64,000 bases of DNA from Tragulus kanchil. Its lineage: Eukaryota > Chordata > Mammalia > Artiodactyla > Tragulidae. This document shows, in pieces, positions 1 through 62,981 of the stretch (positions within the stretch are counted from its first letter, which is position 1; the number at the start of each line of letters is the position of its first letter). The stretch spans positions 138,343,301-138,407,300 of the forward strand of contig JAIOJX010000025.1 in NCBI GenBank assembly GCA_022376925.1, given 5' to 3'. The position numbers were made by a program, and so were the translations under genes. The notes beneath the pieces are model-generated. The model was not told the origin of the DNA and searched no databases. It worked only from the letters and a program-made list of their open reading frames with translations.

Positions 1-520
1 AGGGAAAACAGGGTCTTACTTAAATGATGGATGCCAATTCCATTTAAAAAGGTATGGAGGCTGGTTGGGAATGAAGAAATGTCACATTTTTTTTTTCTAT
101 TTTCATCTATGAATATGGTAAAATAATTGATTTTTGGTTGTTAAAGCAACTTTGCATTACTGAAATGAAATCCACTTGGTCTTTATATTTATCTTTTCTA
201 TATTTTTAGATTTTGTTTGACAGGTATTTTTGTGTATACATTCATGAAGAGGATAGGTATATATGATGCTTTTATTTTTTGCTTTTGGTGTTGGTGTCAT
301 TGAATGATGGCCTCATGGAATGAATTGTGGATTGCTATGTCATCTTTTATTTTCCGAAAAGATTTTGTAGAATTAGTATTATGTCTTGTTTAAATTATAG
401 GTGAAATTAGTAAGTGCTGAGTTGCTAAAGGAGTAGATCCTAAAAAAAATGTTTTTTCTTTATTTTTCTTTGTTTTTTTTTTTTGCATTTAAATAAGATG
501 ATAGTTGTTAGTTAAAATTA

Positions 521-555
521 TTGTAATAAATCTAGATTTATTGTAATAAATCTAG
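521..555. repeat. 20-bp tandem, 1.75 copies
   Basis: The unit ttgtaataaatctagattta occurs at 521-540 and repeats without its last 5 bases at 541-555. The same arrangement recurs in the second D1 copy near 1636-1671. Confidence 0.8.
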
Positions 556-629
556 TAACATAAGTCATTGTGTTTTATACCTTGAATTTACGCAATGCTG
601 TATGTCCATTATATTGCAATAAAATTGAG

Positions 630-686
630 CTGGGGTCTCCTGCATTACAGGTGGGTTCTTTACCAGCTGAGCTACCAGGGAAACCC
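630..686 (-). mobile_element. SINE fragment, tRNA-related head (Bov-tA or CHR type)
   Basis: The complement carries the ruminant tRNA-derived SINE head: the ccctggtagctcagctgg-type A-box region followed by the 'aagaacccacctgtaatgcaggagacc' type segment. The body is missing, so this is a 57-bp fragment. The family cannot be fixed from the head alone. Confidence 0.7.
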
Positions 687-1743
687 TTTGAGACTGTACT
701 CCTGCCCATAGGTTAGAAGGTCTTTCTGTTCTGGCTGTGGGAACATGAACTATTCATGGTCCTTTGTGAACTCCACCTGTCTGTGCCCTCTAGTCTGTGG
801 TTTAGGTAGTTTCTTCACATGCATGCACCAAGCAGTACTCAGTTAAAAACTCGGGGTGATCTGCAGATCTGCAGACCTCTCTCTATATATAGCTCTCTCC
901 TAATTACTACCCTGTTTCTGAATTCTAGCTGACTTGGTTTTCCTCACTCTCAACTCTGTTTCGTCAACTCAGAGAGATAACTGGGCTGCTAGCTCCAGGC
1001 TGTCGTGTCTGAAAAACATATATTTTGTCCACTTTTTAGCTGTTTTAAGCTGAGAAGGAAAACTTAGTTCCTCTTAGTTCATCATCATGGCCACAATTCA
1101 GATAACACTTAAAATAGTGAGGAACATGGAGTGTGGATTTACAGAGTATTGTTTCAGATATATGTATACATATACATGACTTTCTCTGAGATTATGATCT
1201 AAAGGTTTAAATCATTGACTTAGGACATAGACTGAGTAATGGAGGAGTTATATTAAATCACTAGCACTTCAGTCTCTGATTCTGAATTCAGACATTATCT
1301 CTTAACTATCCTGTACCATGTGATTGCACTTGAACTCCCTGTGTGTAAAAGGACAGTTTATCACCTGTTATTAGAGTCTGAAACATGCGATTTTATTTTG
1401 CTTTTGGTGTTGGTGTCATTGAATGATGGCCTCATGGAATGAATTGTGGATTGCTATGTCATCTTTTATTTTCCGAAAAGATTTTGTAGAATTAGTATTA
1501 TGTCTTGTTTAAATTATAGGTGAAATTAGTAAGTGCTGAGTTGCTAAAGGAGTAGATCCTAAAAAAAATGTTTTTTCTTTATTTTTCTTTGTTTTTTTTG
1601 CATTTAAATAAGATGATAGTTGTTAGTTAAAATTATTGTAATAAATCTAGATTTATTGTAATAAATCTAGTAACATAAGTCATTGTGTTTTATACCTTGA
1701 ATTTACGCAATGCTGTATGTCCATTATATTGCAATAAAATTGA

Positions 1744-1801
1744 GCTGGGGTCTCCTGCATTACAGGTGGGTTCTTTACCAGCTGAGCTACCAGGGAAACC
1801 C
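1744..1801 (-). mobile_element. SINE head fragment, second D1 copy
   Basis: Same fragment as at 630-686, repeated because it lies inside duplication D1. Confidence 0.7.
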
Positions 1802-2508
1802 TTTGAGACTGTACTCCTGCCCATAGGTTAGAAGGTCTTTCTGTTCTGGCTGTGGGAACATGAACTATTCATGGTCCTTTGTGAACTCCACCTGTCTGTG
1901 CCCTCTAGTCTGTGGTTTAGGTAGTTTCTTCACATGCATGCACCAAGCAGTACTCAGTTAAAAACTCGGGGTGATCTGCAGATCTGCAGACCTCTCTCAT
2001 ATATAGCTCTCTCCTAATTACTACCCTGTTTCTGAATTCTAGCTGACTTGGTTTTCCTCACTCTCAACTCTGTTTCGTCAACTCAGAGAGATAACTGGGC
2101 TGCTAGCTCCAGGCTGTCGTGTCTGAAAAACATATATTTTGTCCACTTTTTAGCTGTTTTAAGCTGAGAAGGAAAACTTAGTTCCTCTTAGTTCATCATC
2201 ATGGCCACAATTCAGATAACACTTAAAATAGTGAGGAACATGGAGTGTGGATTTACAGAGTATTGTTTCAGATATATGTATACATATACATGACTTTCTC
2301 TGAGATTATGATCTAAAGGTTTAAATCATTGACTTAGGACATAGACTGAGTAATGGAGGAGTTATATTAAATCACTAGCACTTCAGTCTCTGATTCTGAA
2401 TTCAGACATTATCTCTTAACTATCCTGTACCATGTGATTGCACTTGAACTCCCTGTGTGTAAAAGGACAGTTTATCACCTGTTATTAGAGTCTGAAACAT
2501 GCGATTTT

Positions 2509-3129: not shown

Positions 3130-3535
3130 GAAAGTCCACATGTGGCATACATTGAATTCTAGTGATTTTTGGATCTATGTATATATTTTCTAGCTTGGTT
3201 CCATGATTATTTTTGATATTCCTATTTTGGTATCACATGATTTAAATTTCAGCATTGTATGTAATTTTACCATCTGATAAGGCAAGGCCTTTTTCATTGA
3301 ATTTCTTTTTCACAATATTTTTTTTGCCTTTTGTCAATCATTTGCTTTATTAGAAGAATTTTAGATTATAGGATTCAATCCCAGGCATAAAAATTTCAAC
3401 AATGTGGTTGAACTTAACAAATGAGGAATTAGTTTGGGGAATTTTTCTGCATTTAAATTTTGTGCTTTTTTTGTTAAATTTATTCTCAAGAATTTTATTT
3501 ATTTATTTTGTTGTTGTTTTCATGCATGGTAAGAG
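3130..3535 (-). mobile_element. Old L1 (L1M-type) ORF2 fragment
   Basis: The order of decayed motifs resembles antisense L1 ORF2: a caatatt-type segment, a gattcaatcccaggcat segment, and 'tgttaaatttattctcaag' before an ATTTT-rich segment. It is heavily diverged and has no open frame. Part of it (3331 onward) is copied at 4395-4600 by duplication D2. Confidence 0.5.
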
Positions 3536-3830
3536 GAGAGTTGAAAGATGAGGCTCAAATACTTCCCAGAGATCAGAACCAACAGAACCTTTAAAATATG
3601 TCCAGAACTCTGAATTCTTTTCACAAGATTAATGAGGTGTTATTAAAGGATTTTAAGCAGAAAAGTGGTGTATGGTCAGATTTCTTTAATTGGTGGAATC
3701 TCAACTGTTACATAGTCAGGACACCAATTGGGAAGCTATTATGATGATCCTGAGAAAGGATGACAGTAATGAAAAGAAGGGTTTTAACTAGATGCTCCTC
3801 TGTTTCAAGAAGAGATGTGATTTTGACTTT
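3536..3830. repeat. Ancient interspersed repeat, family not resolved
   Basis: Phrases such as 'attttaagcagaaaagtggtg', then a gtcagatttc step, then 'ttgggaagctattatgatga', match a common mammal-wide repeat that I cannot name with confidence. The region at 45640-46160 looks like another member. Repeated at about 4600-4894 by D2. Confidence 0.4.
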
Positions 3831-3994
3831 ACTTGTGGTGTTTAACCCTCACCTTCTGTATATCATCATTATTAGATTATTTGTTATTCTACCGCTTTCT
3901 CAATAAACTTTGGTAATACATAGTTTTCTTGAAAATTGTCCATTTTCTGTATATTTGCAAAATTTTAAGTATAAAGCTTACATACAGTTCTTTT

Positions 3995-4294
3995 TTTTTT
4001 TTTTTAAACATTTATTTATTTATTTTGGCGGGGGTGGGCCACTTCCTCTGGTCTTTCATTTGTCTAGTTTAATCCATCGTTGTTCTTTGGCCCGTGTGGG
4101 CCTCCCATCGCGGTGGCCTCTGTTGTCACAGAGCACCAGCTCTGGGCGCATGCGCTCCAGAGCTCCGGCTCTGTAATTGGACACATCGGTCCAGCCGCTC
4201 CGCAGCACGCGGGATCTTCCGAGGCCAGGGATCGAACCAGCGCCCCTTGCACTGCGAGGGGATGTCCTTACCCACTGGACCACCAGGGAAGCCC
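3995..4294 (-). mobile_element. Long-tail CHR-type SINE, complete
   Basis: Read on the minus strand it starts with the tRNA-like gggcttccctggtggtccag head. It has a B-box-like ggttcgatccc, a CpG-rich body around the catgcgc core, and an A-rich tail. The flanks are imperfect target-site duplications, acatacagttctttt at 3980-3994 and acatgcagttctttt at 4295-4309 (one mismatch). CpGs in the body are largely kept, suggesting a fairly recent insertion. Confidence 0.85.
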
Positions 4295-5058
4295 ACATGC
4301 AGTTCTTTTATCTTAATCTCGTCCATTTCTATGTTTTACTCTCCTCTTTTTCCCTCATCAAGAGGCTCTTTAGTTCCTCTTCACTTTCTGCCATTTGTCA
4401 ATCATTTGCTTTATTAGAAGAATTTTAGATTATAGGATTCAATCCCAGGCATAAAAATTTCAACAATGTGGTTGAACTTAACAAATGAGGAATTAGTTTG
4501 GGGAATTTTTCTGCATTTAAATTTTGTGCTTTTTTTGTTAAATTTATTCTCAAGAATTTTATTTATTTATTTTGTTGTTGTTTTCATGCATGGTAAGAGG
4601 AGAGTTGAAAGATGAGGCTCAAATACTTCCCAGAGATCAGAACCAACAGAACCTTTAAAATATGTCCAGAACTCTGAATTCTTTTCACAAGATTAATGAG
4701 GTGTTATTAAAGGATTTTAAGCAGAAAAGTGGTGTATGGTCAGATTTCTTTAATTGGTGGAATCTCAACTGTTACATAGTCAGGACACCAATTGGGAAGC
4801 TATTATGATGATCCTGAGAAAGGATGACAGTAATGAAAAGAAGGGTTTTAACTAGATGCTCCTCTGTTTCAAGAAGAGATGTGATTTTGACTTTACTTGT
4901 GGTGTTTAACCCTCACCTTCTGTATATCATCATTATTAGATTATTTGTTATTCTACCGCTTTCTCAATAAACTTTGGTAATACATAGTTTTCTTGAAAAT
5001 TGTCCATTTTCTGTATATTTGCAAAATTTTAAGTATAAAGCTTACATACAGTTCTTTT

Positions 5059-5358
5059 TTTTTTTTTTTAAACATTTATTTATTTATTTTGGCGGGGGTG
5101 GGCCACTTCCTCTGGTCTTTCATTTGTCTAGTTTAATCCATCGTTGTTCTTTGGCCCGTGTGGGCCTCCCATCGCGGTGGCCTCTGTTGTCACAGAGCAC
5201 CAGCTCTGGGCGCATGCGCTCCAGAGCTCCGGCTCTGTAATTGGACACATCGGTCCAGCCGCTCCGCAGCACGCGGGATCTTCCGAGGCCAGGGATCGAA
5301 CCAGCGCCCCTTGCACTGCGAGGGGATGTCCTTACCCACTGGACCACCAGGGAAGCCC
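5059..5358 (-). mobile_element. Long-tail CHR-type SINE, second D2 copy
   Basis: Identical in arrangement to the element at 3995-4294, including both target-site duplications. It is present because it lies inside D2, not because of a second insertion. Confidence 0.85.
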
Positions 5359-5399
5359 ACATGCAGTTCTTTTATCTTAATCTCGTCCATTTCTATGTT

Positions 5400-6975
5400 T
5401 TACTCTCCTCTTTTTCCCTCATCAAGAGGCTCTTTAGTTCCTCTTCACTTTCTGCCATTAGAGTGGTATCATCTGTGTACCTGAAGTTGTTGATGTTTCT
5501 TCAGGCAGTCTTGAGTCTAGCTTGTGATTCACACAGCCTGACATTTCCCATGATGTGCTCTGCATTTAAGTTAAATAGAGTGGCAGTATACAACCTTGTC
5601 ATACTCCTTGCCCAATTTTGAACAAGTCAGTAGTTCCATGTGAGATTCTAACTGTTGCTTCTTGATCCACATACAGGTTTCTTGGGATACAGGTGAGGTG
5701 GTCTGGTCGTCCCATCTCTTTAAGAATTTTCCACAGTTGGTCATGATCCACACAGTCAAAGGCTTTAGGATAGTCGATGAAGCAGAAGTAGATGTTTTTC
5801 TGAAATTCCCTTGCTTTCTGTATGATCCAGTGAATCTTGGAAATTGGATCTCTGGTTCCTCTGCATTTTCTAAACCCTGCTTGTACATACTTGAAAGATT
5901 TGGAATATAACCTTAATAGCATGTGAAATGAGTGCAGCTCTATGGTAGTTTGAACATTGTTTGGCTCTGCCCTTCTTTGAGATTGGAATGAAAACTGACC
6001 TTTTCCAGTCCTGTGGCCACTGCTGAATTTTCCGTATTTGCTGACCTATTGAGTGCAACACTTTAACAGCATCATCTTTTAAGATTTGAAATAGCTCAGC
6101 TGGAATTCTGTGACATCCACTAGGTTTGTAGTAGTGCTTCTTGAGGCCCACTTGACAATCTAGGATGTCTGGCTTTAGGTGAGTGACCATACCATCGGCG
6201 TTATATGGGTCAGTGAGATCTTTCTTGTATAGTTCTTCTGTGTATTCTTTCTCCCTCTTCTCAATCTCTCCTGCTTCTGTTAGGTCCTTACTGTTTCTGT
6301 CCTTTATTGTGCCTACCCTTGCAAGAAATGTTCTCTTGATGTCTCCGGTGTTCATGAAGAGATCTCTAGTTTTTGCTGTTCTGTTGTTTTCCTCTATTTC
6401 TTTTCATTGTTCATTGAAGAAGGCCTTATCTCTCCTTACTATTCTCTGGAAGTCTGCATTTAGGTGGGTGTATCTTTCCCTTTTGCCTTTCGCTTCTCCT
6501 TTTTTCTCAACTATTAGGGAGGCCTCCTCAGACAACCACTTTGCCTTCTTGCATTTTTTTCCCTTTGGAATGGCTTTGGTCACCACCTCCTGTACAGTGT
6601 TACCAACCTCTGTCCATAGTTCTACAGACACTCTGTCCACCAGATCTAATACCTTGAGTTCACTCATCACCTCCCCTGTATAATCAGAAGGTATTTGATT
6701 TAAGTCATACATGAATGGCCCAGTAGTTTTCCCTTACTGTCTTCAGTTTAAGCCTGAATTTTCCAAGAAGGAGTTCATGATCTGAGCGCTAGTCAGCTCC
6801 ATGTCTTGTTTTTGCTGACTGAATAGAACTTCTCCATCTTTGGCTGCAAAGAATATAGTCAGTCTGATCTTAGTATTGACCGTTTGGTGATGTCTGTGTG
6901 TGGACTCATCTCTTGTGTTGTTGGAACAAGGGGTGTTTGCTATGACCAGTATGTTCTCTCGACAAAACTCTTTTG
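5400..6975 (-). mobile_element. BovB (RTE) LINE fragment, antisense
   Basis: The whole interval aligns by eye with antisense BovB, from the segment downstream of the reverse transcriptase core (low coordinates) towards the endonuclease end (high coordinates). BovB is an RTE-clade non-LTR retrotransposon abundant in ruminants. The low-coordinate end abuts the SINE of D2, and the high-coordinate end stops abruptly at an L1M fragment near 6976. Confidence 0.88.
5599..6712 (-). pseudogene. Decayed BovB polyprotein: linker and reverse transcriptase part
   Basis: BovB encodes an endonuclease plus reverse transcriptase that copies its RNA at a nicked genomic target. Three broken frames follow one another on the minus strand: 6712-6404 (102 codons, ends at a stop), 6355-5870 (161 codons) and, after a frame change, 5922-5599 (107 codons). 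The last contains FIDYPKAFDCVDHDQLWKIL, the RTE reverse transcriptase segment around the first catalytic Asp, followed by the EMGRPDHLT-like and RNLYVDQEATVR-like segments. The middle frame has the QWPQDWKRSVFIPISKKGRA-type upstream RT segment. Stops and frame changes make it inactive. Family assignment is firm; no intact protein is possible. Confidence 0.88.
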
Positions 6976-7454: not shown

Positions 7455-7842
7455 ACAACTGTTATTTACTTAATTGCCCCTTTTCCTCTGCCATTCATGT
7501 TTTGAAACCTAAGCCCCCAAAGTGACTGTGCTAGAGATACAGCTTTTAGAGAGATAATTAAGGTTAATGAGGTCTTAGGGGTGGGATCCTAATTCAGTAG
7601 GATCGGTATCCTTATAGGAAGAAGAGATACCAAGATACCATGCACACACACGGAGAAAAGCTATGTGAGGACGCAGGGAGTTGGCCGTTTGCAGTCAAGG
7701 GAGACCTCAGGAGAACCTAAACCTGCTGAGGCCTTCATCTTGGACTTTCGGCTTTCACAACTATGAGGAAATAGACTTCTGTTGTTTAGACTGCCCAGTC
7801 TGTGGTATTTTGTTAAGGAAGCACTCCCAAACTAATACAGCA
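7455..7842 (+). mobile_element. MLT1-type MaLR LTR inserted in the L1M
   Basis: Matches the common MLT1 solo-LTR pattern: gataattaaggttaatgagg, then 'gggatcctaat', then 'tatccttataggaagaagag', then 'gaggccttcatcttggact', then 'cttctgttgtttagactgcc', ending 'ccaaactaatacag'. The L1M reading continues on both sides, so it is an insertion. It is an old non-autonomous ERVL-MaLR LTR with no coding content. The internal end of D2-like duplication D3 begins inside it at 7630. Confidence 0.75.
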
Positions 7843-7950
7843 TCCTAGTTAGTGCGAAGTGCTAGCTCATTGCACTTTGGGTTTGCATTTTCCACATGGG
7901 TAATGACATTGAGCATCTTTTTGTATTGGATATTATCCATTGCATTTTTT
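7843..7950 (-). mobile_element. L1M 3' region, right part
   Basis: Continues the L1M interrupted at 7453, with the catcctagttagtgcgaag start and the 'gacattgagcatctttt' motif. Some L1M may continue past the SINE at 8188, but I cannot follow it. Copied at 8950-9057 by D3. Confidence 0.7.
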
Positions 7951-8187
7951 TTCTTTTCCCCATCATGCCTCTTTTTATTATATTTATTTCCATCCATCTT
8001 TTTTTTCTTTGGCCTGTGTGAGCCTCCCATTGCAGTGGCCTCTCTCACTGCAGAGCACTGGCTTGTAATTGGACACACTGGCCCAGCTTCTCCGCAGCAT
8101 GTGGGATCTTCCAGGGCTAGGGATCGAACTGGTGCCCCTTGCACTGCAAGGTGGACTCTTTATCCACTGGACCACCAGGGAAGCCCC
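7951..8187 (-). mobile_element. CHR-type SINE inserted in the L1M
   Basis: Antisense tRNA-derived SINE ending in the gggaagcccc head. The target-site duplication is tccattgcatttttt at 7936-7950 and 8188-8202, a perfect 15 bp. The body lacks a segment of the long form, since the catgcgc core is missing. Confidence 0.85.
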
Positions 8188-8202
8188 TCCATTGCATTTT
8201 TT

Positions 8203-8726
8203 TAATGTCTTATTATTTATTATGATTTCATGTTATTTCTTTAATTTTCTTTCCTATCTTTTGCTCAGTTAACTTTAATACGTTATAATTTTTATTTCAA
8301 TTGTAATAATGTTTGTCCTTAGATTTTTATAAATGAATTGAGACATATATTTTCTGTCCATGCAGGAATGAAGCATGGGGACACATAGTAGTCTTTTCTT
8401 CTCTTCTGCCAGCTCTCCTCCTCAGCCTCCAATTCTGTCATCTTAAGACTGATCAGAGTCACAAAGATGAAACCTATTGCTGGCCTCTACTGCAAGTTCA
8501 GTACCAAGTTGTAACCTTTCAGAAAGAAAGATACAACTCTTAAATTCTTGAATTCTACAGCTTGAGCTTATTAAACTCTGTCCAATAGGGGGAAAAAAAA
8601 GATTTGTTTCTGGGCATTGCCTTTTAAACTTTCTTTGAAATGTTCTGTATTTGTTTATCTGTGAAATTTACATTTGGAAATGTCACTCCTGAAAAGTGGA
8701 AAGTAAATGGGATAATGTTTCAGCAA
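8203..8726. other. Unrecognised stretch
   Basis: AT-rich near 8203-8370 and mixed later. I recognise no repeat family or reading frame. It is repeated at 9310-9833, and its part from about 8452 appears a third time from 10698. Confidence 0.5.
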
Positions 8727-9057
8727 GGAGTTTGGGCCAAGATACCATGCACACACACGGAGAAAAGCTATGTGAGGACGCAGGGAGTTGGCCGTTTGCA
8801 GTCAAGGGAGACCTCAGGAGAACCTAAACCTGCTGAGGCCTTCATCTTGGACTTTCGGCTTTCACAACTATGAGGAAATAGACTTCTGTTGTTTAGACTG
8901 CCCAGTCTGTGGTATTTTGTTAAGGAAGCACTCCCAAACTAATACAGCATCCTAGTTAGTGCGAAGTGCTAGCTCATTGCACTTTGGGTTTGCATTTTCC
9001 ACATGGGTAATGACATTGAGCATCTTTTTGTATTGGATATTATCCATTGCATTTTTT

Positions 9058-9294
9058 TTCTTTTCCCCATCATGCCTCTTTTTATTATATTTATTTCCAT
9101 CCATCTTTTTTTTCTTTGGCCTGTGTGAGCCTCCCATTGCAGTGGCCTCTCTCACTGCAGAGCACTGGCTTGTAATTGGACACACTGGCCCAGCTTCTCC
9201 GCAGCATGTGGGATCTTCCAGGGCTAGGGATCGAACTGGTGCCCCTTGCACTGCAAGGTGGACTCTTTATCCACTGGACCACCAGGGAAGCCCC
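9058..9294 (-). mobile_element. CHR-type SINE, second D3 copy
   Basis: Same element and same target-site duplication as at 7951-8187, carried by D3. Confidence 0.85.
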
Positions 9295-9558
9295 TCCATT
9301 GCATTTTTTTAATGTCTTATTATTTATTATGATTTCATGTTATTTCTTTAATTTTCTTTCCTATCTTTTGCTCAGTTAACTTTAATACGTTATAATTTTT
9401 ATTTCAATTGTAATAATGTTTGTCCTTAGATTTTTATAAATGAATTGAGACATATATTTTCTGTCCATGCAGGAATGAAGCATGGGGACACATAGTAGTC
9501 TTTTCTTCTCTTCTGCCAGCTCTCCTCCTCAGCCTCCAATTCTGTCATCTTAAGACTG

Positions 9559-11830
9559 ATCAGAGTCACAAAGATGAAACCTATTGCTGGCCTCTACTGC
9601 AAGTTCAGTACCAAGTTGTAACCTTTCAGAAAGAAAGATACAACTCTTAAATTCTTGAATTCTACAGCTTGAGCTTATTAAACTCTGTCCAATAGGGGGA
9701 AAAAAAAGATTTGTTTCTGGGCATTGCCTTTTAAACTTTCTTTGAAATGTTCTGTATTTGTTTATCTGTGAAATTTACATTTGGAAATGTCACTCCTGAA
9801 AAGTGGAAAGTAAATGGGATAATGTTTCAGCAAAACAAAATGCAGAGTTTTTGAGAGAGAAAGACATTACATAAATCCAAAGCCAGTAAAGAAAATTTAA
9901 AACTATGTTTTTTTTCCCAAAAAATAGTGAAATTGGCTCAGTAGAACTTTGTCACGTATAAAAACCTGGTTTTCAGAGTGAGTTGGAATGTTTATGGTTA
10001 CACATAATTCTGTCAGATGGTCTGTATATGGAATCCTATCTCAAGTGCCTTGGTCTCTTGGAGAGGGCTTTAATGTACTTAAATGCATTCTTGCTGTCAA
10101 ACTCATGTAAACTTCTTGCCTTTTGCTTCAGTATAAATGCTTTTCTAGTTTAAATGAGTTTTTAAAGACTTCTGCCTAATAATTTAGAGCTCAGGCTCTC
10201 AGCATTGATGGAAGGACTAAAAAAAAGTCACAGCACAGTAGTAGTTATAGTTCTATTAGAAATAACAAATTGCTCAGCTAGTCAACAGCCCTTATCCAGC
10301 CTCAGTTTTAAAGCACTGTACTAAAGACTGTGGAAACTTATAGAGAAATCCCTCATGAACCCAAATTCTATTAACATGTATCAAAAAATAGAGGAAAATC
10401 AAAGCAGTACTTGAAAGCACAACTTAGTGCCTGACTTTGCAAGCTCCACATCAGCCCTATGTCCACCTTGATTAGTGCTGATGTTGGATAACTCACTATG
10501 CATTCAGTGTGAAGATGTGTAGAATGATGAGTATAGGTATAATACCTGCCTCATAGACTGGGAAAGTCTAACTAGGATAAAACAGATAAATGTGCTGAAT
10601 ATAGTAGCTGATAGATACATAGTAAGCATTCAGCAAATGTAAGCAATTGTTTTTCAGTGATTTTAAATTATTAAGTATTATATATATCCAGTAAAATATC
10701 AGAGTCACAAAGATGAAACCTATTGCTGGCCTCTACTGCAAGTTCAGTACCAAGTTGTAACCTTTCAGAAAGAAAGATACAACTCTTAAATTCTTGAATT
10801 CTACAGCTTGAGCTTATTAAACTCTGTCCAATAGGGGGAAAAAAAAGATTTGTTTCTGGGCATTGCCTTTTAAACTTTCTTTGAAATGTTCTGTATTTGT
10901 TTATCTGTGAAATTTACATTTGGAAATGTCACTCCTGAAAAGTGGAAAGTAAATGGGATAATGTTTCAGCAAAACAAAATGCAGAGTTTTTGAGAGAGAA
11001 AGACATTACATAAATCCAAAGCCAGTAAAGAAAATTTAAAACTATGTTTTTTTTCCAAAATATAGTGAAATTGGCTCAGTAGAACTTTGTCACGTATAAA
11101 AACCTGGTTTTCAGAGTGAGTTGGAATGTTTATGGTTACACATAATTCTGTCAGATGGTCTGTATATGGAATCCTATCTCAAGTGCCTTGGTCTCTTGGA
11201 GAGGGCTTTAATGTACTTAAATGCATTCTTGCTGTCAAACTCATGTAAACTTCTTGCCTTTTGCTTCAGTATAAATGCTTTTCTAGTTTAAATGAGTTTT
11301 TAAAGACTTCTGCCTAATAATTTAGAGCTCAGGCTCTCAGCATTGATGGAAGGACTAAAAAAAAGTCACAGCACAGTAGTAGTTATAGTTCTATTAGAAA
11401 TAACAAATTGCTCAGCTAGTCAACAGCCCTTATCCAGCCTCAGTTTTAAAGCACTGTACTAAAGACTGTGGAAACTTATAGAGAAATCCCTCATGAACCC
11501 AAATTCTATTAACATGTATCAAAAAATAGAGGAAAATCAAAGCAGTACTTGAAAGCACAACTTAGTGCCTGACTTTGCAAGCTCCACATCAGCCCTATGT
11601 CCACCTTGATTAGTGCTGATGTTGGATAACTCACTATGCATTCAGTGTGAAGATGTGTAGAATGATGAGTATAGGTATAATACCTGCCTCATAGACTGGG
11701 AAAGTCTAACTAGGATAAAACAGATAAATGTGCTGAATATAGTAGCTGATAGATACATAGTAAGCATTCAGCAAATGTAAGCAATTGTTTTTCAGTGATT
11801 TTTAAATTATTAAGTATTATATATATCCAG
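9559..11830. repeat. Tandem duplication D4 (1,139-bp unit)
   Basis: Unit A is 9559-10691, starting inside the second copy of D3, and unit B is 10698-11830. Bases 10692-10697 are junction filler. The copies differ in a short run near 9910 versus 11049 (tcccaaaaaatag against tccaaaatatag). Because A overlaps D3, the first ~270 bp occur three times (8452, 9559, 10698). Confidence 0.96.
10525..10655 (+). mobile_element. MIR SINE, 3' part
   Basis: Contains ataatacctgcctcatagac and the 'tagtaagcattcagcaaatg' tail, which are the standard MIR 3' motifs in sense orientation. Old and mammal-wide. Copied at about 11664-11794 by D4. Confidence 0.7.
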
Positions 11831-11914
11831 AAATGGAGCAATTCATACCTATACACATTAACAAATCATAATAAAATGAGCTCCAAGGAAGTCAGCACTC
11901 CAATGGCAGGAAAT

Positions 11915-16858: not shown

Positions 16859-16867
16859 TGTATGCAA

Positions 16868-51974: not shown

Positions 51975-54083
51975 ATATATATATGTACATATACACACAC
52001 ATATATATTTGAGACCCCCATGGAAAACCCCTCAGTTTCCTATAAGGTTATATTCAGCAACTCTATAACATAGCATTTCCTTCCTATGTTTTTACCCAAC
52101 AGGAGTGGGAATATATATTCACAAAGAAATTTACATAAGAATATTTATAGCAGCTTTAGTCATATCAGCCCCCAAATGGAAACAACCAAATATCCATCTA
52201 TAAGGGAATATATTTAAAAATTGTGCTATTTTCATACAGTGGACCATTTATTGCTTAGCAATAAAGAAGAATGACCTATTGATACACTCAACAGTGTAGA
52301 CAAATCTCAGAGACATTATGCTGAGTAAATAAAGCCAGATAGAAGAGAGTACATACCATCTGAGCCCATTTTTTATAAAGCTCAAGAACAGGCAAAACCA
52401 ATCTGTGGTAATAGCAGTGAGAACAGTGCTTGCCTTTGGGATGTGGGGATTGATTAAAAAAGCACCTGAGGGAGCTTTCTGGAATGATGGAAATGTTCTG
52501 TATTTTTTTTTTGTTGGTGGTTACACAGTTGGATTTCTTTATCAAGATATATCAGACTGTACACTTAAAATCAGCCTGATTTACTGAATATAAGTTTTAC
52601 TTTAAAAAATGATTATTTTGCAATTTCCTGTGAATCTTTATTACTTCAAAATAATAGGTTCAGAAAAGTACACTATGGTTTCCATTTGTTGAAATTTCTT
52701 GAAACTTTTATAATGCACGTGTGGTTTATTTCCGTAAGTGTTAATGTGTGTATCTTAGGCACTATGTAATCACAGTTGTAGAGTGAAGTTTTCACTGTCT
52801 TTTTTTTCTTCCTGAAAATGTGTCCTGGTATGCCTAGTGATTGTTGATTGGATGCAGAACATTGTGTAGAGAGAGTCATAGATATGGTGGATGATGGTGT
52901 CTTTCTCTAGAGGTTTCCTTTGCTTCTGATAGGCAGTTGGAGTAACATGGACCTCTGTAATCTACTGAGGGACTGAAATGGACTCATATATGTACATTTT
53001 TACCCAACCCAGGGATGAAACCTGGCTGTCCTGCATTGCAGGCAGATCCCTCCTCACTAAGCCATCAGAGAAGCCATATATATATATGTACATATACACA
53101 CACATATATATTTGAGACCCCCATGGAAAACCCCTCAGTTTCCTATAAGGTTATATTCAGCAACTCTATAACATAGCATTTCCTTCCTATGTTTTTACCC
53201 AACAGGAGTGGGAATATATATTCACAAAGAAATTTACATAAGAATATTTATAGCAGCTTTAGTCATATCAGCCCCCAAATGGAAACAACCAAATATCCAT
53301 CTATAAGGGAATATATTTAAAAATTGTGCTATTTTCATACAGTGGACCATTTATTGCTTAGCAATAAAGAAGAATGACCTATTGATACACTCAACAGTGT
53401 AGACAAATCTCAGAGACATTATGCTGAGTAAATAAAGCCAGATAGAAGAGAGTACATACCATCTGAGCCCATTTTTTATAAAGCTCAAGAACAGGCAAAA
53501 CCAATCTGTGGTAATAGCAGTGAGAACAGTGCTTGCCTTTGGGATGTGGGGATTGATTAAAAAGCACCTGAGGGAGCTTTCTGGAATGATGGAAATGTTC
53601 TGTATTTTTTTTTTGTTGGTGGTTACACAGTTGGATTTCTTTATCAAGATATATCAGACTGTACACTTAAAATCAGCCTGATTTACTGAATATAAGTTTT
53701 ACTTTAAAAAATGATTATTTTGCAATTTCCTGTGAATCTTTATTACTTCAAAATAATAGGTTCAGAAAAGTACACTATGGTTTCCATTTGTTGAAATTTC
53801 TTGAAACTTTTATAATGCACGTGTGGTTTATTTCCGTAAGTGTTAATGTGTGTATCTTAGGCACTATGTAATCACAGTTGTAGAGTGAAGTTTTCACTGT
53901 CTTTTTTTTCTTCCTGAAAATGTGTCCTGGTATGCCTAGTGATTGTTGATTGGATGCAGAACATTGTGTAGAGAGAGTCATAGATATGGTGGATGATGGT
54001 GTCTTTCTCTAGAGGTTTCCTTTGCTTCTGATAGGCAGTTGGAGTAACATGGACCTCTGTAATCTACTGAGGGACTGAAATGG
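51900..54083. repeat. Tandem duplication D19 (about 1.10 kb unit)
   Basis: Unit A is 51900-52981 and unit B 53002-54083. Bases 52982-53001 (actcatatatgtacattttt) match neither side. A begins within the Bov-tA and ends beyond the L1M. Difference: attaaaaaagc against attaaaaagc near 52456/53558. Confidence 0.96.
53077..53775 (+). mobile_element. L1M 3' end, second D19 copy
   Basis: Second copy of the last part of the L1M that lies at 51975-52672. Confidence 0.8.
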
Positions 54084-54650: not shown

Positions 54651-55154
54651 TAATATGATGACCTGCCTTGGGTTTATTTCCTTTCTCCCTAAGATCTTGG
54701 CCTCTCATGTCCTGGATGCTCTGGGAGCACTCCAGGGCCTTCAAAGAATTTTTAAAAATAATTCTGTCTAGCTTTTCTGGCTGTTTCAATGGAAGTTGAT
54801 CTGATACAAACTTTTCCTCATAGCCATGACTGGGAATCCTTCTCTAAGCCCACACTGTGAACTCCTCAAAAAGGCCCAGCGGCCATTGTTATTCTGAGAA
54901 AATTGAAGCAATTTCTTCCTGTCATTACCCCAGAATGTTGTCTTCTTTTCCTGGGCTTTGTGAAGGGCATATTTGAATCTGGGATTGTTTCTTGGACATT
55001 TCCCTCCTTTCCAGTTGCAATCTCCAGTCATTACATCATGATACCCACTCCAGTATACTTAAAGGGATTGTGTGTGGCCTACCCACAAGAGAGCCCATTA
55101 GCGTGGTTAACACTGTGGTTGGTATTTGAATAAAAAGATGCCCTCATCACCTTT

Positions 55155-55396
55155 CAGTTCAGTTCAGCCACTCAATCGCATCTGACTCTTTGTGACCTCA
55201 TGGACTGCGGCATGTCCAGGGTTCCCTGTCCTTCACCACCTCCTGGAGCTTGCTCAGACTCTTGTCCATTGCCTCAGTGATGCCATCCAACATCCTCTGT
55301 TGTCCCCTTGTCCTTCTTCCTTCTATTTTTCCCAGGGTCTTTTCCATCAGGATCTTTCCCAATGAGTCATCTCTTCACATCAGATGGCCAAAGTAA
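55155..55396 (-). mobile_element. BovB 3' end, antisense
   Basis: The sequence cagttcagttcagccactca, then 'ctcagactcttgtccattgc', then 'ccaatgagtcatctcttcac' and 'cagatggccaaagta' is the antisense BovB 3' end, ~240 bp. Copied at 56287-56528 by D20. Confidence 0.85.
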
Positions 55397-55827
55397 GGAA
55401 GTAATCTAATGATTACTGCCTTCACTTCTCTGCTAGATTAAATTTGTGTCTTCTAGCTCTTGAATTTTAGCTGAATTTCCATGAAAAATAAATACAAGAA
55501 TTCTGTGAATAAGAAGGATGGGAGCCTCAATATTCATGAGCATGATCCTTTCAGCCTCTTCAAAAGTGGAAACAGTTTATAATAAATGCTTTTAAGGCCC
55601 TAGAATAAATTTAGGCTAAAGAATGTAAATTTAATGTCTCTAAACCTAATTGGAAACCTCAGCAAAGAAGAAAACAAAGAATAAAAAACCTCTTTTGTAA
55701 TGACTTCTGCCAAGGAATGGGAAAGAGATTCATTTTAAAGATGTCTCCAGAGAGAACTGAAGCTATAAAGTTTGTGTTTTTTTTTTTTCTCAACAGTTCA
55801 CAAGAGCAGTGATTCTCAAGCTTTCTC
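55397..55827. other. Unrecognised stretch, duplicated by D20
   Basis: No element or gene signal recognised. The same sequence recurs at 56529-56960. Confidence 0.45.
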
Positions 55828-56286
55828 CCAAGACTTGGCCTCCATGCGATGCTCTGGGAGCACTCCAGGGCCTTCAAAGAATTTTTAAAAATAATTCTGT
55901 CTAGCTTTTCTGGCTGTTTCAATGGAAGTTGATCTGATACAAACTTTTCCTCATAGCCATGACTGGGAATCCTTCTCTAAGCCCACACTGTGAACTCCTC
56001 AAAAAGGCCCAGCGGCCATTGTTATTCTGAGAAAATTGAAGCAATTTCTTCCTGTCATTACCCCAGAATGTTGTCTTCTTTTCCTGGGCTTTGTGAAGGG
56101 CATATTTGAATCTGGGATTGTTTCTTGGACATTTCCCTCCTTTCCAGTTGCAATCTCCAGTCATTACATCATGATACCCACTCCAGTATACTTAAAGGGA
56201 TTGTGTGTGGCCTACCCACAAGAGAGCCCATTAGCGTGGTTAACACTGTGGTTGGTATTTGAATAAAAAGATGCCCTCATCACCTT

Positions 56287-56528
56287 TCAGTTCAGTTCAG
56301 CCACTCAATCGCATCTGACTCTTTGTGACCTCATGGACTGCGGCATGTCCAGGGTTCCCTGTCCTTCACCACCTCCTGGAGCTTGCTCAGACTCTTGTCC
56401 ATTGCCTCAGTGATGCCATCCAACATCCTCTGTTGTCCCCTTGTCCTTCTTCCTTCTATTTTTCCCAGGGTCTTTTCCATCAGGATCTTTCCCAATGAGT
56501 CATCTCTTCACATCAGATGGCCAAAGTA
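56287..56528 (-). mobile_element. BovB 3' end, second D20 copy
   Basis: Same element as at 55155-55396. Confidence 0.85.
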
Positions 56529-57224
56529 AGGAAGTAATCTAATGATTACTGCCTTCACTTCTCTGCTAGATTAAATTTGTGTCTTCTAGCTCTTGAATTT
56601 TAGCTGAATTTCCATGAAAAATAAATACAAGAATTCTGTGAATAAGAAGGATGGGAGCCTCAATATTCATGAGCATGATCCTTTCAGCCTCTTCAAAAGT
56701 GGAAACAGTTTATAATAAATGCTTTTAAGGCCCTAGAATAAATTTAGGCTAAAGAATGTAAATTTAATGTCTCTAAACCTAATTGGAAACCTCAGCAAAG
56801 AAGAAAACAAAGAATAAAAAACCTCTTTTGTAATGACTTCTGCCAAGGAATGGGAAAGAGATTCATTTTAAAGATGTCTCCAGAGAGAACTGAAGCTATA
56901 AAGTTTGTGTTTTTTTTTTTTCTCAACAGTTCACAAGAGCAGTGATTCTCAAGCTTTCTCAACAATGGACCCTATTTCTGGGCACACATACCACTGAGGG
57001 TGAATTCTCCTTTTTTACAAGAAGAAAATTTTGGGTGAGCACTCTCTGCAAGGAAAGAACGTATAGCTATTCAGAGAGGTAAGTCATTTATTTAGAGGAT
57101 GGGGAAAGAAGTAGCTTAAAAAAGAAAATGCTACAGACTATTTCATTTATTGTGAGTGAGGATTTGAAATGCATAGTAGACATTTCACTAAATATCATGT
57201 TAGAAGATCCTTGTCATTGATGAT

Positions 57225-57385
57225 CTCATTCTAGATTTAATTCTCAGCTCTTTTACTCACCATCTGTGTAAATTTGGACAAGTTATTTAAATTCTCAGAG
57301 CTCCAGTTCTTTCATCTGTAAAGGAAAATTTCATAGGAAAATGTTTTACCGATGGGAGAATATAATATAAAAATAAAATTGTTAC
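57225..57385 (+). mobile_element. MIR SINE, sense
   Basis: Sense MIR motifs: ctagatttaattctcagctc, 'catctgtgtaaatttggaca' and 'ctttcatctgtaaaggaaaa'. Copied at about 58350-58510 by D21. Confidence 0.7.
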
Positions 57386-57955
57386 TGTTTATTGTTAATT
57401 ACCATTATTTGTTGCTGTTGAAACATTCTGTGAAGTAGCCAGTGGCTTTGTGTCTCATGGTGTATTTGGACTGCTGAGCTTGGTGCTGTGGACTGGGGGC
57501 TTTGTCTTGAGTACTGGGAGTGGAAGGCATTCCCCAGCTGCCTCCTGTAAAAGCAACATCAGACCCTTTTTTCACCTGCCAGCATTGTCACCTACCTTTT
57601 GCAAATTGAGGGAAAGGGAGGAAGTTAAAGATAAGATCAAAGATGAGAAAATAAGAACTACTTGTATTAGTTGTTACAGCAAGGGTTGTATTAAGTATTG
57701 TTTTGCTTAATCCTTGGAAAGTGAGTGGCATTCATACCGTGGCATTTTCTCCTCAAGAGACAGGATTCCTTAGGGAGTCATTTAAGATAAAAGCATTTGG
57801 GTTTACACGACTGGGGAGATATCATTGGATGGAGGGAATTCGAAATTCTTAATTTTTTCTGATGTTTTTGATGACATGTACAGTTTCTGTAATTAGAAAG
57901 TGGCCAATTATAATCAAATAATGGATTAACAGAAAACTTTGTTGAGCACCGCTCA
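57386..57955. other. Unrecognised stretch, duplicated by D21
   Basis: No element recognised. An 86-codon frame at 57450-57710 (and 58575-58835) has no familiar domain and is not accepted as a gene. Confidence 0.45.
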
Positions 57956-57959
57956 TGAA

Positions 57960-58250
57960 CTAAGTACATCTCTTCTAGATGTTTCTTCTTATCAGTGAAC
58001 AAAACAGGTGAAGATCCCTGCCTTCATGGAGCGTATTCTAGCACGTAGACAGATAATAAATACTGTACACCATAGAGAATTTAATTAAGGATAATCCAGG
58101 ATATTAGAAGCCAGAAAAAGTATGGAGAAAAGAAAAACGTAGAGCCAAGAAGAGGGAATTGGAAATATGGTGGGCGGGTGGGGCAATAGCGGCAGAGTTA
58201 AGTAAGTGGTGGAGTCTACCTTACTGAGGAAAGCCAAGAGTCACTCCAAG
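57960..58250. repeat. Ancient interspersed repeat, family not resolved
   Basis: tcagtgaacaaaacaggtga, 'tccctgccttcatggagcg' and 'gcacgtagacagataataaa' are the left part of the unresolved repeat class also seen near 45640. Copied near 59084-59390. Confidence 0.45.
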
Positions 58251-59617
58251 TGTGTTTCCAGCCAAGGTAGTCAAGTCCTGGGGCATGGTAGGGAAGTCCA
58301 AAAGGAGGTTACATGTTCTTTAAAACATGTTAGAAGATCCTTGTCATGATCTCATTCTAGATTTAATTCTCAGCTCTTTACTCACCATCTGTGTAAATTT
58401 GGACAAGTTATTTAAATTCTCAGAGCTCCAGTTCTTTCATCTGTAAAGGAAAATTTCATAGGAAAATGTTTTACCGATGGGAGAATATAATATAAAAATA
58501 AAATTGTTACTGTTTATTGTTAATTACCATTATTTGTTGCTGTTGAAACATTCTGTGAAGTAGCCAGTGGCTTTGTGTCTCATGGTGTATTTGGACTGCT
58601 GAGCTTGGTGCTGTGGACTGGGGGCTTTGTCTTGAGTACTGGGAGTGGAAGGCATTCCCCAGCTGCCTCCTGTAAAAGCAACATCAGACCCTTTTTTCAC
58701 CTGCCAGCATTGTCACCTACCTTTTGCAAATTGAGGGAAAGGGAGGAAGTTAAAGATAAGATCAAAGATGAGAAAATAAGAACTACTTGTATTAGTTGTT
58801 ACAGCAAGGGTTGTATTAAGTATTGTTTTGCTTAATCCTTGGAAAGTGAGTGGCATTCATACCGTGGCATTTTCTCCTCAAGAGACAGGATTCCTTAGGG
58901 AGTCATTTAAGATAAAAAGCATTTGGGTTTACACGACTGGGGAGATATCATTGGATGGAGGGAATTCGAAATTCTTAATTTTTTCTGATGTTTTTGATGA
59001 CATGTACAGTTTCTGTAATTAGAAAGTGGCCAATTATAATCAAATAATGGATTAACAGAAAACTTTGTTGAGCACCGCTCATGAACTAAGTACATCTCTT
59101 CTAGATGTTTCTTCTTATCAGTGAACAAAACAGGTGAAGATCCCTGCCTTCATGGAGCGTATTCTAGCACGTAGACAGATAATAAATACTGTACACCATA
59201 GAGAATTTAATTAAGGATAATCCAGGATATTAGAAGCCAGAAAAAGTATGGAGAAAAGAAAAACGTAGAGCCAAGAAGAGGGAATTGGAAATATGGTGGG
59301 CGGGTGGGGCAATAGACGGCAGAGTTAAGTAAGTGGTGGAGTCTACCTTACTGAGGAAAGCCAGGAATTCTGCAGTCACTCCAAGTGTGTTTCCAGCCAA
59401 GGAGTAGCTGATACAAAGCTCCTAATGAGAGAGCATGGTAGGGAAGTCCCAGACACAACTGGAAGGCCAGTGAACTAGAGCAGAGTGTGTGGGAAAGAGT
59501 AGCAGCGTCAGCCCCGGAGGAAATGTTATTCCATACTTGGTTTAGAAACATAAGAAAAATTACCTTGTTTTCTTCTTATATCTATTGTTTATTCTAGGTG
59601 TCTTTCCTCTGCAATTA

Positions 59618-59640: not shown

Positions 59641-59664
59641 CAATAAGTAAACTCCACCTCCACC

Positions 59665-59985
59665 TCTATTAGTTTGTTTCCGAGTGTTGCTATAACAAAA
59701 TACCACAAACTGGGAGGCTTAAAACAACAGAAATGTACTGTCTCACTGTTTTGCAAGGTAGAAGTCCAAAATTAAGGTGGGGTCATGCTCCCTCTTGTGA
59801 GACGGGAAGAGGATGTGGTGGTGGCCATTGTTGACTGGTGTTCCTGGACCTGAGCTAAATCACTCCAGTTTCTGCCTCTCCAGTCATGTGACAGTCTCCC
59901 TAAATGTTTGTGTCTTTTCTTGGTGGTCCTTTCTTTTATAAGGATGCCAGACAGATTAGATTAAGAGCCTAACCCAGGAGGCCCC
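59665..59985 (-). mobile_element. MLT1-type MaLR LTR, antisense
   Basis: Antisense MLT1 pattern: tattagtttgtttccgagtg, 'aaaataccacaaactgggag', 'cttaaaacaacagaaatgta', then 'cttttataaggatgccagac' and 'gattaagagcctaaccc'. It is the same LTR class as at 7455-7842, opposite strand. Confidence 0.75.
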
Positions 59986-60309
59986 CGTCTCTGGGATCCA
60001 GTGTCAGATGATCTAAAGTAGAGCTGATATAATAATAATAGGAATAAAGTGCACAATAAGTGTCATGTGCTTGAATCATCCTGAAACCGTACCCCCAACC
60101 ATGGTCTGTGGAAGAATTGGCTTCCATGAGACCAGCCCCTGGTGCCTAAAAGACTGGGTACCCCTGGTCTGACCTATTCAGCCTGACTCCATCTTAACAA
60201 TGACATGATCAATCACCCTCTCTCCAAATCAGGCCACATTCTGAGGTGGTGAGAGTTAGGAATTCAATACATTGTTGGAGGGTGACACATTCAGCCATAA
60301 TGGCACCTT
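59986..60309. other. Mostly unrecognised stretch
   Basis: Near 60100-60175 the phrase tggtctgtggaagaattggc with 'cccctggtgcctaaaagac' resembles a common ancient repeat that I cannot name. Nothing else recognised. Confidence 0.35.
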
Positions 60310-60430
60310 AAATAATAGGTAATGGTCATTACTATTCTCATCTTGCAAAGAGAGAAACAGGCTCAGGAGGCTTCAGTGGCTTGGCCAAGGTCAGAGTCAG
60401 GAAGCAGAAGAGCCTGGTCAGTGAGATTTT
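60310..60430 (-). mobile_element. MIR SINE, antisense
   Basis: Antisense MIR core: 'attctcatcttgcaaagaga', 'gaaacaggctcaggagg' and 'cttggccaaggtcagagtca'. Confidence 0.7.
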
Positions 60431-60732
60431 CTCGTGGGCTCATCTGTGCTTTTCAGTGCAATTTTATCATGCTGGGGCAGTGAGGTCAGGATGGAGGTGC
60501 CAGGGCACTGCTTAGCTCAGGGCAGGAATTACATACATACACGCAATATTGAGTTCCTCATCCATACTGCTTAACCCCACGATAGCTCAAACTTGATGCT
60601 CTACCTCAGCATTCCTATCAAAAGGGAAAATAGATGCCCTTCATGGCCCATTCCCCAATTTGCATTTTATTCCACAACATGATAAACATAGGAAACAGAT
60701 GCTTTTCCCCTCTTTTAGAATTTTTCCCAGAA
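60431..60732. other. Unrecognised stretch
   Basis: No element or gene signal recognised just before D22. Confidence 0.4.
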
Positions 60733-62981
60733 AATTATTGCTACAGTTTCTGTGGTGTGTAGAACATTTTGTGACAGAACCGCATGGTTTTTTCACACAC
60801 AACACAGGAAAAAAATTAGGACTCTCTGAGTCAGTTGGCATATTGCAGTAGAATTAGAGGACTTTGCAACCTTTAATATATTTTGCTTTCTCATTGTAGT
60901 ATTTTTTTAAAAACCTTTATTTTGCTTTTAACTTTTACAGAGTTTTGTTGTTTACAGATATGTATGTTCCCAGATTAGTCATATGTATATCCCCCCCTTC
61001 CCACCCCTCCCAACCATCACATAGCACCCTTGAAGGATCCCCTTTTCTCACAGAGCAATGACTAAAGCTGTTTTCTTCACTTATGATAGTACAGGCCTTC
61101 ATGCTACTTCCTTTACGCCTCCCACCTTCTGTTCCTTCCCCACAATGTCCATATGTCCACTGTCCATATCTGTCTTTCTGTCGCTTCACTGCTTGTGCCA
61201 TCATCACCATCCTACTAGATTCCATATATATGTGTTAATATACTGTATTTGTCCTTCTCTTTCTGACTGACTTCACTTTTGATGATATGTTCTAGATCCA
61301 GCCACCTCATTAGGGCTGATTCTTACGCATTTCTCTTTACAGCTGTGTAGTATTCCATTGTATGTATGTGCCAGAGCTTTTGGATCCATTCGTTCGTCGA
61401 TGGGCATCTAGGTTCCTTCCATGTTCTAGCTATTGTATAGAGAGCTGCAATGAACATTGGGGTACAGGTGCTTCTTTCAGATTTGATTTCATCAGGGTAT
61501 AAGCCTAAGAGTGGGATAGCTGGGTCATATGGTGCTTCTATTTTTAGTTTTTTAAGAAATCTCCAGACTGTCTTCCTAGAGGCTGTATCAATTTACACTC
61601 CCACCAGCAATGCAGGAGTGTTCCCTTTTCTCCGCAGCCTCTCCAGCATTTATTGTCTGTCGATTTGTGGATGGCCATTCTGACGGGTGTGAGGTGATAT
61701 CTCATTGTAGTTTTGATTTGCATTTCTCTAATTATTAGTGAAGTTGAGCATCGTTTCATGTGCTTTTGGGCCATCTGTATGTCATCATCGAAGAGGTGTC
61801 TGTTTAGGTCCTTTCCCCATTTTTTGATTGGGTTGTTCATTTTTCCAGTGCTGAGTTGTAATTATTGCTACAGTTTCTGTGGTGTGTAGAACATTTTGTG
61901 ACAGAACCGCATGGTTTCACACACAACACAGGAAAAAAATTAGGACTCTCTGAGTCAGTTGGCATATTGCAGTAGAATTAGAGGACTTTGCAACCTTTAA
62001 TATATTTTGCTTTCTCATTGTAGTATTTTTTTAAAAACCTTTATTTTGCTTTTAACTTTTACAGAGTTTTGTTGTTTACAGATATGTATGTTCCCAGATT
62101 AGTCATATGTATATCCCCCTTCCCACCCCTCCCAACCATCACATAGCACCCTTGAAGGATCCCCTTTTCTCACAGAGCAATGACTAAAGCTGTTTTCTTC
62201 ACTTATGATAGTACAGGCCTTCATGCTACTTCCTTTACGCCTCCCACCTTCTGTTCCTTCCCCACAATGTCCATATGTCCACTGTCCATATCTGTCTTTC
62301 TGTCGCTTCACTGCTTGTGCCATCATCACCATCCTACTAGATTCCATATATATGTGTTAATATACTGTATTTGTCCTTCTCTTTCTGACTGACTTCACTT
62401 TTGATGATATGTTCTAGATCCAGCCACCTCATTAGGGCTGATTCTTACGCATTTCTCTTTACAGCTGTGTAGTATTCCATTGTATGTATGTGCCAGAGCT
62501 TTTGGATCCATTCGTTCGTCGATGGGCATCTAGGTTCCTTCCATGTTCTAGCTATTGTATAGAGAGCTGCAATGAACATTGGGGTACAGGTGCTTCTTTC
62601 AGATTTGATTTCATCAGGGTATAAGCCTAAGAGTGGGATAGCTGGGTCATATGGTGCTTCTATTTTTAGTTTTTTAAGAAATCTCCAGACTGTCTTCCTA
62701 GAGGCTGTATCAATTTACACTCCCACCAGCAATGCAGGAGTGTTCCCTTTTCTCCGCAGCCTCTCCAGCATTTATTGTCTGTCGATTTGTGGATGGCCAT
62801 TCTGACGGGTGTGAGGTGATATCTCATTGTAGTTTTGATTTGCATTTCTCTAATTATTAGTGAAGTTGAGCATCGTTTCATGTGCTTTTGGGCCATCTGT
62901 ATGTCATCATCGAAGAGGTGTCTGTTTAGGTCCTTTCCCCATTTTTTGATTGGGTTGTTCATTTTTCCAGTGCTGAGTTGT
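60733..62981. repeat. Tandem duplication D22 (about 1.12 kb unit)
   Basis: Unit A is 60733-61859 and unit B 61860-62981. Differences: ggttttttcacac against ggtttcacac, and a C-run (cccccc against cccc). A repeats the 3' end of the L1 described below, so that L1 appears to end twice. Confidence 0.96.
60905..61859 (-). mobile_element. L1 3' end, first D22 copy
   Basis: Antisense 3' UTR and the last part of ORF2, a direct copy of 62027-62981. A 98-codon ORF2 end lies at 61840-61544. Confidence 0.9.

Follow-up and report, generated by a model that had tools for sequence, protein, structure and literature searches.

Duplicated, overlapping contigs in genome assemblies were described by Kelley and Salzberg (2010; PMC2864568), and in the part of that paper cited here duplications within a contig are held to be rarely false and the treatment is limited to separate contigs. 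A 2022 study names homotype false duplication and, in the part cited here, gives 3.7–15.9% false duplication for three older assemblies, most of it heterotype (PMC9516828). The consensus built on graph edges by wtdbg2 and wtpoa-cns (PMC12037172) and the adjustable node length of wtdbg2 (PMC11087460) also appear in the cited parts of their sources. Among titles and abstract openings, no published report of a failure in graph-edge merging was found. The Tragulus kanchil sequence resembles the faults as presented in these parts of PMC2864568 and PMC9516828 in that the same DNA is written twice where two pieces were left unmerged, and coding sequence may suffer. Unlike them, its units are found within gapless sequence, are of nearly one length and account for about 28% of the sample. 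Judged from the sequence, these doublings of about 1.1 kb are almost certainly an assembly artefact, in which a near-constant overlap between chunks would have been left untrimmed.

Self-BLAST of the window (the whole stretch of 64,000 nucleotides analysed) and global alignment of each pair of copies revealed 22 head-to-tail duplications, each with a first copy, A, and a second copy, B (Table 1). This agrees with the preliminary description, made from the letters alone, which had listed 22 direct duplications with a unit of 1,064–1,163 bp and B starts that fall within 10 bp of the BLAST boundaries (exact in 13 of the 22). The A copies measured 1,059–1,147 bp and the offsets determined by pairwise global alignment 1,064–1,163 bp, with a mean of 1,114, an SD of 23 and a CV of 2%. 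Identity between A and B ranged from 98.5 to 100%, and in three of the 22 pairs the copies were identical to the letter. The distance from junction to junction varied about threefold, from 1,766 to 5,727 bp, and the chunk length from 1,769 to 5,720 bp, so that a nearly constant overlap is combined with variable spacing, much as had been proposed (1.8–5.7 kb, with an overlap near 1.1 kb). With the units collapsed, the window was reduced to 39,490 bp, close to the 40 kb anticipated. The earlier view that the units share no content does not strictly hold: eight of the 21 neighbouring pairs overlap by 86–458 bp in collapsed coordinates, and some stretches are therefore present three times (for example, 8452–8726 = 9559–9833 = 10698–10972), while self-BLAST found the same interspersed repeats in several units. 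The remaining self-matches of at least 150 bp, among those listed, were interspersed elements with 72–93% identity or third copies.

Table 1. Positions of the doubled units in the window, from self-BLAST and global alignment of each A/B pair
Unit	Extent	A copy	B copy	Offset (bp)	Remarks
1	266..2508	266-1394	1385-2508	1119	
2	3321..5459	3321-4395	4385-5459	1064	
3	7630..9833	7630-8726	8737-9833	1107	Copies identical; 275 bp collapsed overlap with unit 4
4	9559..11833	9559-10694	10698-11833	1139	
5	13598..15770	13598-14678	14691-15770	1093	Start gaps in B, end gaps mainly in A
6	16131..18345	16131-17237	17240-18345	1109	
7	18261..20484	18261-19363	19371-20484	1110	
8	21465..23671	21465-22571	22563-23671	1098	
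9	23503..25737	23503-24620	24621-25737	1118	
10	25310..27542	25310-26427	26424-27542	1114	Single near-start gap in A, contrary to the rule
11	27568..29738	27568-28642	28666-29738	1098	Filler of 23 bp
12	29602..31789	29602-30698	30693-31789	1091	Copies identical
13	35273..37561	35273-36412	36420-37561	1147	
14	37102..39274	37102-38188	38186-39274	1084	
15	39105..41351	39105-40229	40227-41351	1122	Copies identical
16	43146..45424	43146-44284	44285-45424	1139	
17	45317..47468	45317-46375	46412-47468	1095	Filler of 36 bp, 12-base exact match just past B
18	48828..51134	48828-49974	49991-51134	1163	
19	51900..54083	51900-52981	53003-54083	1103	
20	54681..56960	54681-55827	55821-56960	1140	Five gaps, all in B, at most 35 bp from unit start
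21	57196..59402	57196-58267	58326-59402	1130	Filler of 58 bp, 17-base exact match beyond B; start gaps in B, end gaps in A
22	60733..62981	60733-61859	61860-62981	1127	

The assembly that contains the window comprises 3.17 Gb in 32 contigs. To it belongs a sample of 20 ten-kilobase stretches (200 kb), placed at round coordinates on 14 of the 32 contigs and chosen regardless of content, two of which flank the window. Units of about 1.1 kb were present in all 20 stretches and hence on all 14 contigs, an occurrence unrelated to content. The stretches held 43 abutting pairs, with offsets of 989–1,225 bp (mean 1,117), and a total of 55 units once 12 cut or interrupted units were included, or about 2.75 sites per 10 kb. 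The redundant second copy made up about 28% of the sampled 200 kb (95% bootstrap interval, 24–31%). From these 14 of 32 contigs, we infer that the fault is present across the whole assembly. In a whole-genome search, 26 of 43 repeat matches outside the window had a partner on the same strand 1,065–1,203 bp away, and 17 had no partner at 1.1 kb. Similarly, among the 11 distinct exons of DNA polymerase B that were found, four were doubled or tripled, with copies 1,060–1,160 bp apart, and seven were seen once (tallied by hand). The single-copy matches and exons are expected with partial doubling and do not by themselves support the model.

The differences between A and B copies are not evenly distributed. 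Near the starts of units gaps fall mostly in B, and near their ends mostly in A. When gaps within 60 bp of unit ends were counted, 17 in the window lay in the predicted copy vs three in the opposite one (p 0.0013), and in 42 units of the sampled stretches the figures were 57 vs 11, in a set from which one of the 43 abutting units, at the edge of its stretch, and all 12 cut or interrupted units had been excluded. Because gap events within one unit end are not independent, counts by unit end were also used: nine predicted vs one opposite and one tie in the window (tallied by eye), and 24 vs four, with two ties, in the stretches (p 9e-5). In both data sets, errors at the start of a unit thus lay mostly in B and those at its end mostly in A, with the opposite placement at one of 11 unit ends in the window and four of 30 in the stretches. 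Gaps further inside the units, which served as a control, showed no such bias (A 10 vs B 14 in the window, A 29 vs B 23 in the stretches). The density of differences near unit ends was about five times that inside the units in the window and about nine times in the stretches. Indels prevailed over substitutions, 44 vs 26 in the window, where 24 of the indels lie in homopolymers of four or more, and 120 vs 79 in the stretches. This pattern, which is not predicted by real duplication, suggests that A and B would be the ends of consensus chunks built separately.

The filler found between the copies at some junctions was compared with the sequences flanking the units. Two of the nine fillers tested in the window, those of units 17 and 21, matched the bases immediately after B (p 0.002 and 0.003 without correction), and five of 15 in the stretches matched the sequence just before A at p<0.002. 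Seven of the nine window fillers and eight of the 15 stretch fillers matched neither flank at p<0.05. In a stricter anchored test of the nine window fillers against both flanks, the match of unit 17 was unsupported (p 0.16–0.17), and only unit 21 gave a clear result.

The preliminary description had attributed the duplications to an artefact of assembly, and this reading is supported by the occurrence in 20 of 20 stretches, by the placement of gaps in window and stretches, and by the matches of some fillers to flanks. The window would be a string of consensus chunks of about 1.8–5.7 kb, each sharing about 1.1 kb with the next, which were very probably placed end to end with the common stretch left unmerged. 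A would then close one chunk and B open the following one, both of them copies of one genomic stretch, and we infer that the animal carries a single copy of each unit. A likely cause is a graph assembler in which neighbouring chunks share one node of fixed length and were joined untrimmed; the fixed length would be that of a node in a graph of the wtdbg/wtdbg2 type whose consensus step failed to align and merge the edges.

In wtdbg2, two adjacent edges have one node in common, and wtpoa-cns, in building the consensus, aligns and merges neighbouring overlaps; here the overlaps would have been left unmerged. The default settings are a node of 1,024 and a bin of 256, which place a floor on spacing at 1,792 (2 x 1,024 - 256). 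The shortest of the 21 window and 35 stretch spacings was 1,766 bp, close to this floor, with two boundaries corrected. Before correction, two thresholded stretch spacings fell below 1,792, namely 1,621 and 1,756. In the first (stretch L025), the B copy is broken by a run of 300 N; it starts at 3084, which gives a spacing of about 2,030; in the second (L016), a second short match sets the B start at about 1304 and the spacing at about 1,878. The longest stretch spacings, 6,117 (L024) and 7,781 (L022), may conceal a junction below the thresholds. Against a wtdbg naming, the mean overlap of 1,114–1,117 is about 9% above the node of 1,024, and a 256-bp step was not significant in the 21 window spacings (best period 248 bp, p 0.18). 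A wtdbg/wtdbg2-type layout probably fits best. Graph-edge merging may have failed systematically, and the failure may have entered a chromosome-scale assembly.

An artefact of the same kind could have been produced by another program, through polishing in chunks, gap filling or a script concatenating pieces with constant flanks. This is a variant of the untrimmed-overlap explanation, with which its probability overlaps, and as a possibility we consider it rather doubtful. Constant overlaps and frayed ends would likewise be obtained, and the sequence carries no indication of the software. Windowed polishing, however, usually yields chunks of constant length, while those observed vary from 1,769 to 5,720 bp at constant overlap, and gap filling was rejected, as it should not touch 20 of 20 stretches chosen blind to content. 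Side-by-side placement of two haplotypes (heterotype false duplication) is a known fault in the cited parts of PMC9516828 and PMC2864568, and some of the internal substitutions could be allelic. Yet this offers no reason for a fixed length of 1.1 kb or for recurrence every few kilobases, and allele-like differences spread along the copies were not found: they concentrate at unit ends, and three of 22 pairs are identical. Haplotype duplication was thus rejected as highly improbable.

The deposited sequence does read as head-to-tail duplications, and short overlaps at some window junctions resemble microhomology, as might be left by real tandem duplications in the animal through in-place copying of about 1.1 kb. 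However, when 22 tandem duplications of the observed lengths were drawn at random in each of 20,000 simulated series, junctions were as far apart as observed in none and as evenly spaced in one, and 69 had no unit straddling an earlier junction; the mutually independent placement of junctions that real duplication implies was not what we found. Random duplication thus leaves the even spacing and lack of straddling unaccounted for, and nothing would set the length. Because all window copies are 98.5–100% alike, the duplications would all have to be recent; in the sampled stretches they would also have had to arise at about 2.75 sites in every 10 kb, and they would have had to affect exons too. 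The indel-rich differences, and the frayed copy that mostly obeys the chunk-end rule, also count against real duplication, which we regard as exceedingly improbable. Still less credible is a living genome in which segments of about 1.1 kb were recently and widely copied in tandem at intervals of a few kilobases, and the frayed ends argue strongly against such a process.

If the figure of about 28% holds throughout the assembly, its non-redundant size would be near 2.29 Gb (2.17–2.40) vs 3.17. The doubled units would falsely double parts of genes as well, and because exons are repeated at the unit spacing, any gene models, counts of copy number, mapping quality or maps of segmental duplications based on this assembly are unsafe. 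Lying in gapless sequence, the fault is beyond the reach of checks directed at contig ends. It can nevertheless be detected from sequence alone, since self-matches accumulate at offsets close to 1.1 kb, and real duplication can be told apart from it by the frayed-end test; together, these would allow a cheap screen of other assemblies.

As for other sequence content, some repeats look like the ruminant retroelements BovB and Bov-tA and point to a ruminant. When seven open frames were searched against Pfam, a single reverse transcriptase fragment was found, and an Rfam search gave three tRNA-like matches, two of which are a single element doubled by unit 7.

Self-comparison of the window showed 22 head-to-tail pairs, in which the offset between the first copy (A) and the second (B) is 1,064–1,163 bp (mean 1,114, SD 23), in keeping with the 22 direct duplications of nearly one length claimed in the preliminary description. 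The B starts listed there all lie within 10 bp of ours (13 of 22 exactly), and the collapse it foresaw to about 40 kb was computed as 39,490 bp. Its statement that the units have no content in common did not hold, since 8 of the 21 adjacent units overlap by 86–458 bp in coordinates that count each duplicated piece once. Parts of these units are thus present in three copies, as expected where a chunk (a separately built consensus piece) is shorter than two overlaps. The spacing between junctions, the boundaries of A and B, varies from 1,766 to 5,727 bp. The duplications are real as a sequence pattern, and random duplication as its source was ruled out by simulation: among 20,000 series of 22 duplications of the observed lengths placed at random, junctions as far apart as those observed never occurred, spacing as even occurred once, and no unit straddled an earlier junction in 69.

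The window sits on contig C8 of a genome of 3,167,203,957 bases in 32 contigs. Outside it, 14 contigs were sampled at round coordinates in 20 stretches of 10 kb, of which two flank the window, and all 20 contained units of this kind. They held 43 abutting pairs (offsets 989–1,225, mean 1,117, SD 36), or 55 units once cut or interrupted ones were counted, and second copies made up 28% of the sequence. The whole genome was also searched with a repeat-bearing piece of the window, and 40 of 3,090 candidates were scored. Among these best matches, 43 lay outside the window, and 26 of them formed 13 same-strand pairs 1,065–1,203 bp apart (two pairs seemingly in one unit); there was one more pair 685 bp apart, and 17 matches were without a 1.1-kb partner.

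Suppose that one chunk ends with A and the following one begins with B, the two being joined without trimming. The consensus would then be expected to be of low quality where B starts and where A ends, and at each such place the other copy would sit well inside its own chunk. Gaps should therefore fall in B near unit starts and in A near unit ends. In the window, tested before the same prediction was applied to 42 stretch units, 17 gaps within 60 bp of unit ends agreed with this and 3 ran counter to it (p 0.0013), with 11 versus 2 at 30 bp and 18 versus 3 at 100 bp. The stretch units gave 57 versus 11 gaps within 60 bp or, counted by unit end, 24 versus 4 with 2 ties (p 9e-5), and 20 versus 5 and 32 versus 3 unit ends at 30 and 100 bp. 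No such bias was found for gaps more than 60 bp inside (A 10 versus B 14 in the window, 29 versus 23 in the stretches). A real duplication gives no reason for this mirrored damage. Differences per base were also denser near the ends than inside, at 0.0106 versus 0.0019 in the window and 0.0208 versus 0.0023 in the stretches. The window pairs differ by 44 indels, 24 of them in homopolymers of at least 4, and 26 substitutions, and the stretch pairs by 120 indels and 79 substitutions; germline change in mammals is mostly substitution, while long-read consensus error consists mostly of homopolymer indels. The 1.1-kb doubling is very probably not a biological feature, and the reading as an assembly artefact made in the preliminary description is supported and, with units in every stretch and the gap test repeated there, extends to every part of the assembly read.

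Constant overlaps between chunks of varying length suggest an assembly graph whose neighboring edges have one fixed-length node in common. Assemblers of the wtdbg/wtdbg2 type by default use nodes of 1,024 bp, bins of 256 bp, and an allowed node overlap of 256 bp. The shortest edge is then 1,792 bp, against 1,766 bp for the shortest of the 21 window spacings. The 35 stretch spacings were 1,621–7,781 bp as first called, the two lowest being due to an N run and a split match and measuring about 2,030 and 1,878 bp on re-reading. The mean overlap, about 1,115 bp, is 9% above 1,024, an excess that could stem from raw reads rich in deletions and with ragged ends. A 256-bp step was not found in the 21 window spacings (p 0.18). 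An assembler of the wtdbg/wtdbg2 family seems reasonably likely; the artefact reading is independent of the family.

Some junctions carry extra bases that are part of neither copy. These fillers have exact matches of 12 bases in unit 17 and 17 bases in unit 21 to sequence 30–50 bp past B, as if the first chunk continued there in damaged form; under a stricter anchored test the match held for unit 21 but not for unit 17. Five of 15 stretch fillers match sequence before A (p < 0.002, uncorrected), as if they were a damaged start of the second chunk. At p < 0.05 (uncorrected), 7 of the 9 window fillers and 8 of the 15 stretch fillers matched neither side.

That assemblies can contain false duplications is well documented (PMC2864568, PMC9516828). 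The 2010 paper excludes within-contig duplications as rarely false (PMC2864568); the present ones differ in lying inside one contig, the kind set aside there. The titles and abstract openings of the literature searched contain no report of such a failure.

Coding sequence is affected as well. A search with the DNA polymerase B family yielded 16 matches, by hand count 11 distinct exons, of which seven turned up a single time and four repeatedly. One exon, in three copies at spacings of 1,087 and 1,160 bp (G000:C15:245979942-245982428), is an example of false exon gain. Three others are doubled at 1,060, 1,094, and 1,122 bp, the 1,094 bp being measured between the upper ends of two matches that differ in length.

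Other features of the window and of three of the sampled stretches (L011, L017, L025)
Feature	Position	Strand	Remarks
Reverse transcriptase fragment	window 5599-6045	-	Pfam RVT_1, E 1.5e-7
Open frame, 354 aa	window 62666-63730	-	overlaps B of unit 22 and extends past it
tRNA-like matches	window 19066-19139, 20182-20255, 32423-32496	+	just over Rfam threshold
Interspersed repeat, 220-270 bp	window 4032-4297, 22041-22290, 32942-33206, 35397-35661, 41561-41786, 49227-49472	both	about 76-87% identity, self-comparison
N run	L025 3193-3492		300 N, mid B copy
N run	L011		394 N
N run	L017		237 N

The N runs are assembly gaps or withheld stretches. The reverse transcriptase fragment presumably belongs to a BovB/RTE-type LINE. 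The 354-aa frame matched no Pfam family at E 0.001, and we take it to resemble part of LINE-1 ORF2. A more distant copy of the interspersed repeat, at about 7950-8187 in the window, yielded the whole-genome matches. The three tRNA-like matches are probably tRNA-derived SINEs, the first two being a single element doubled by unit 7.
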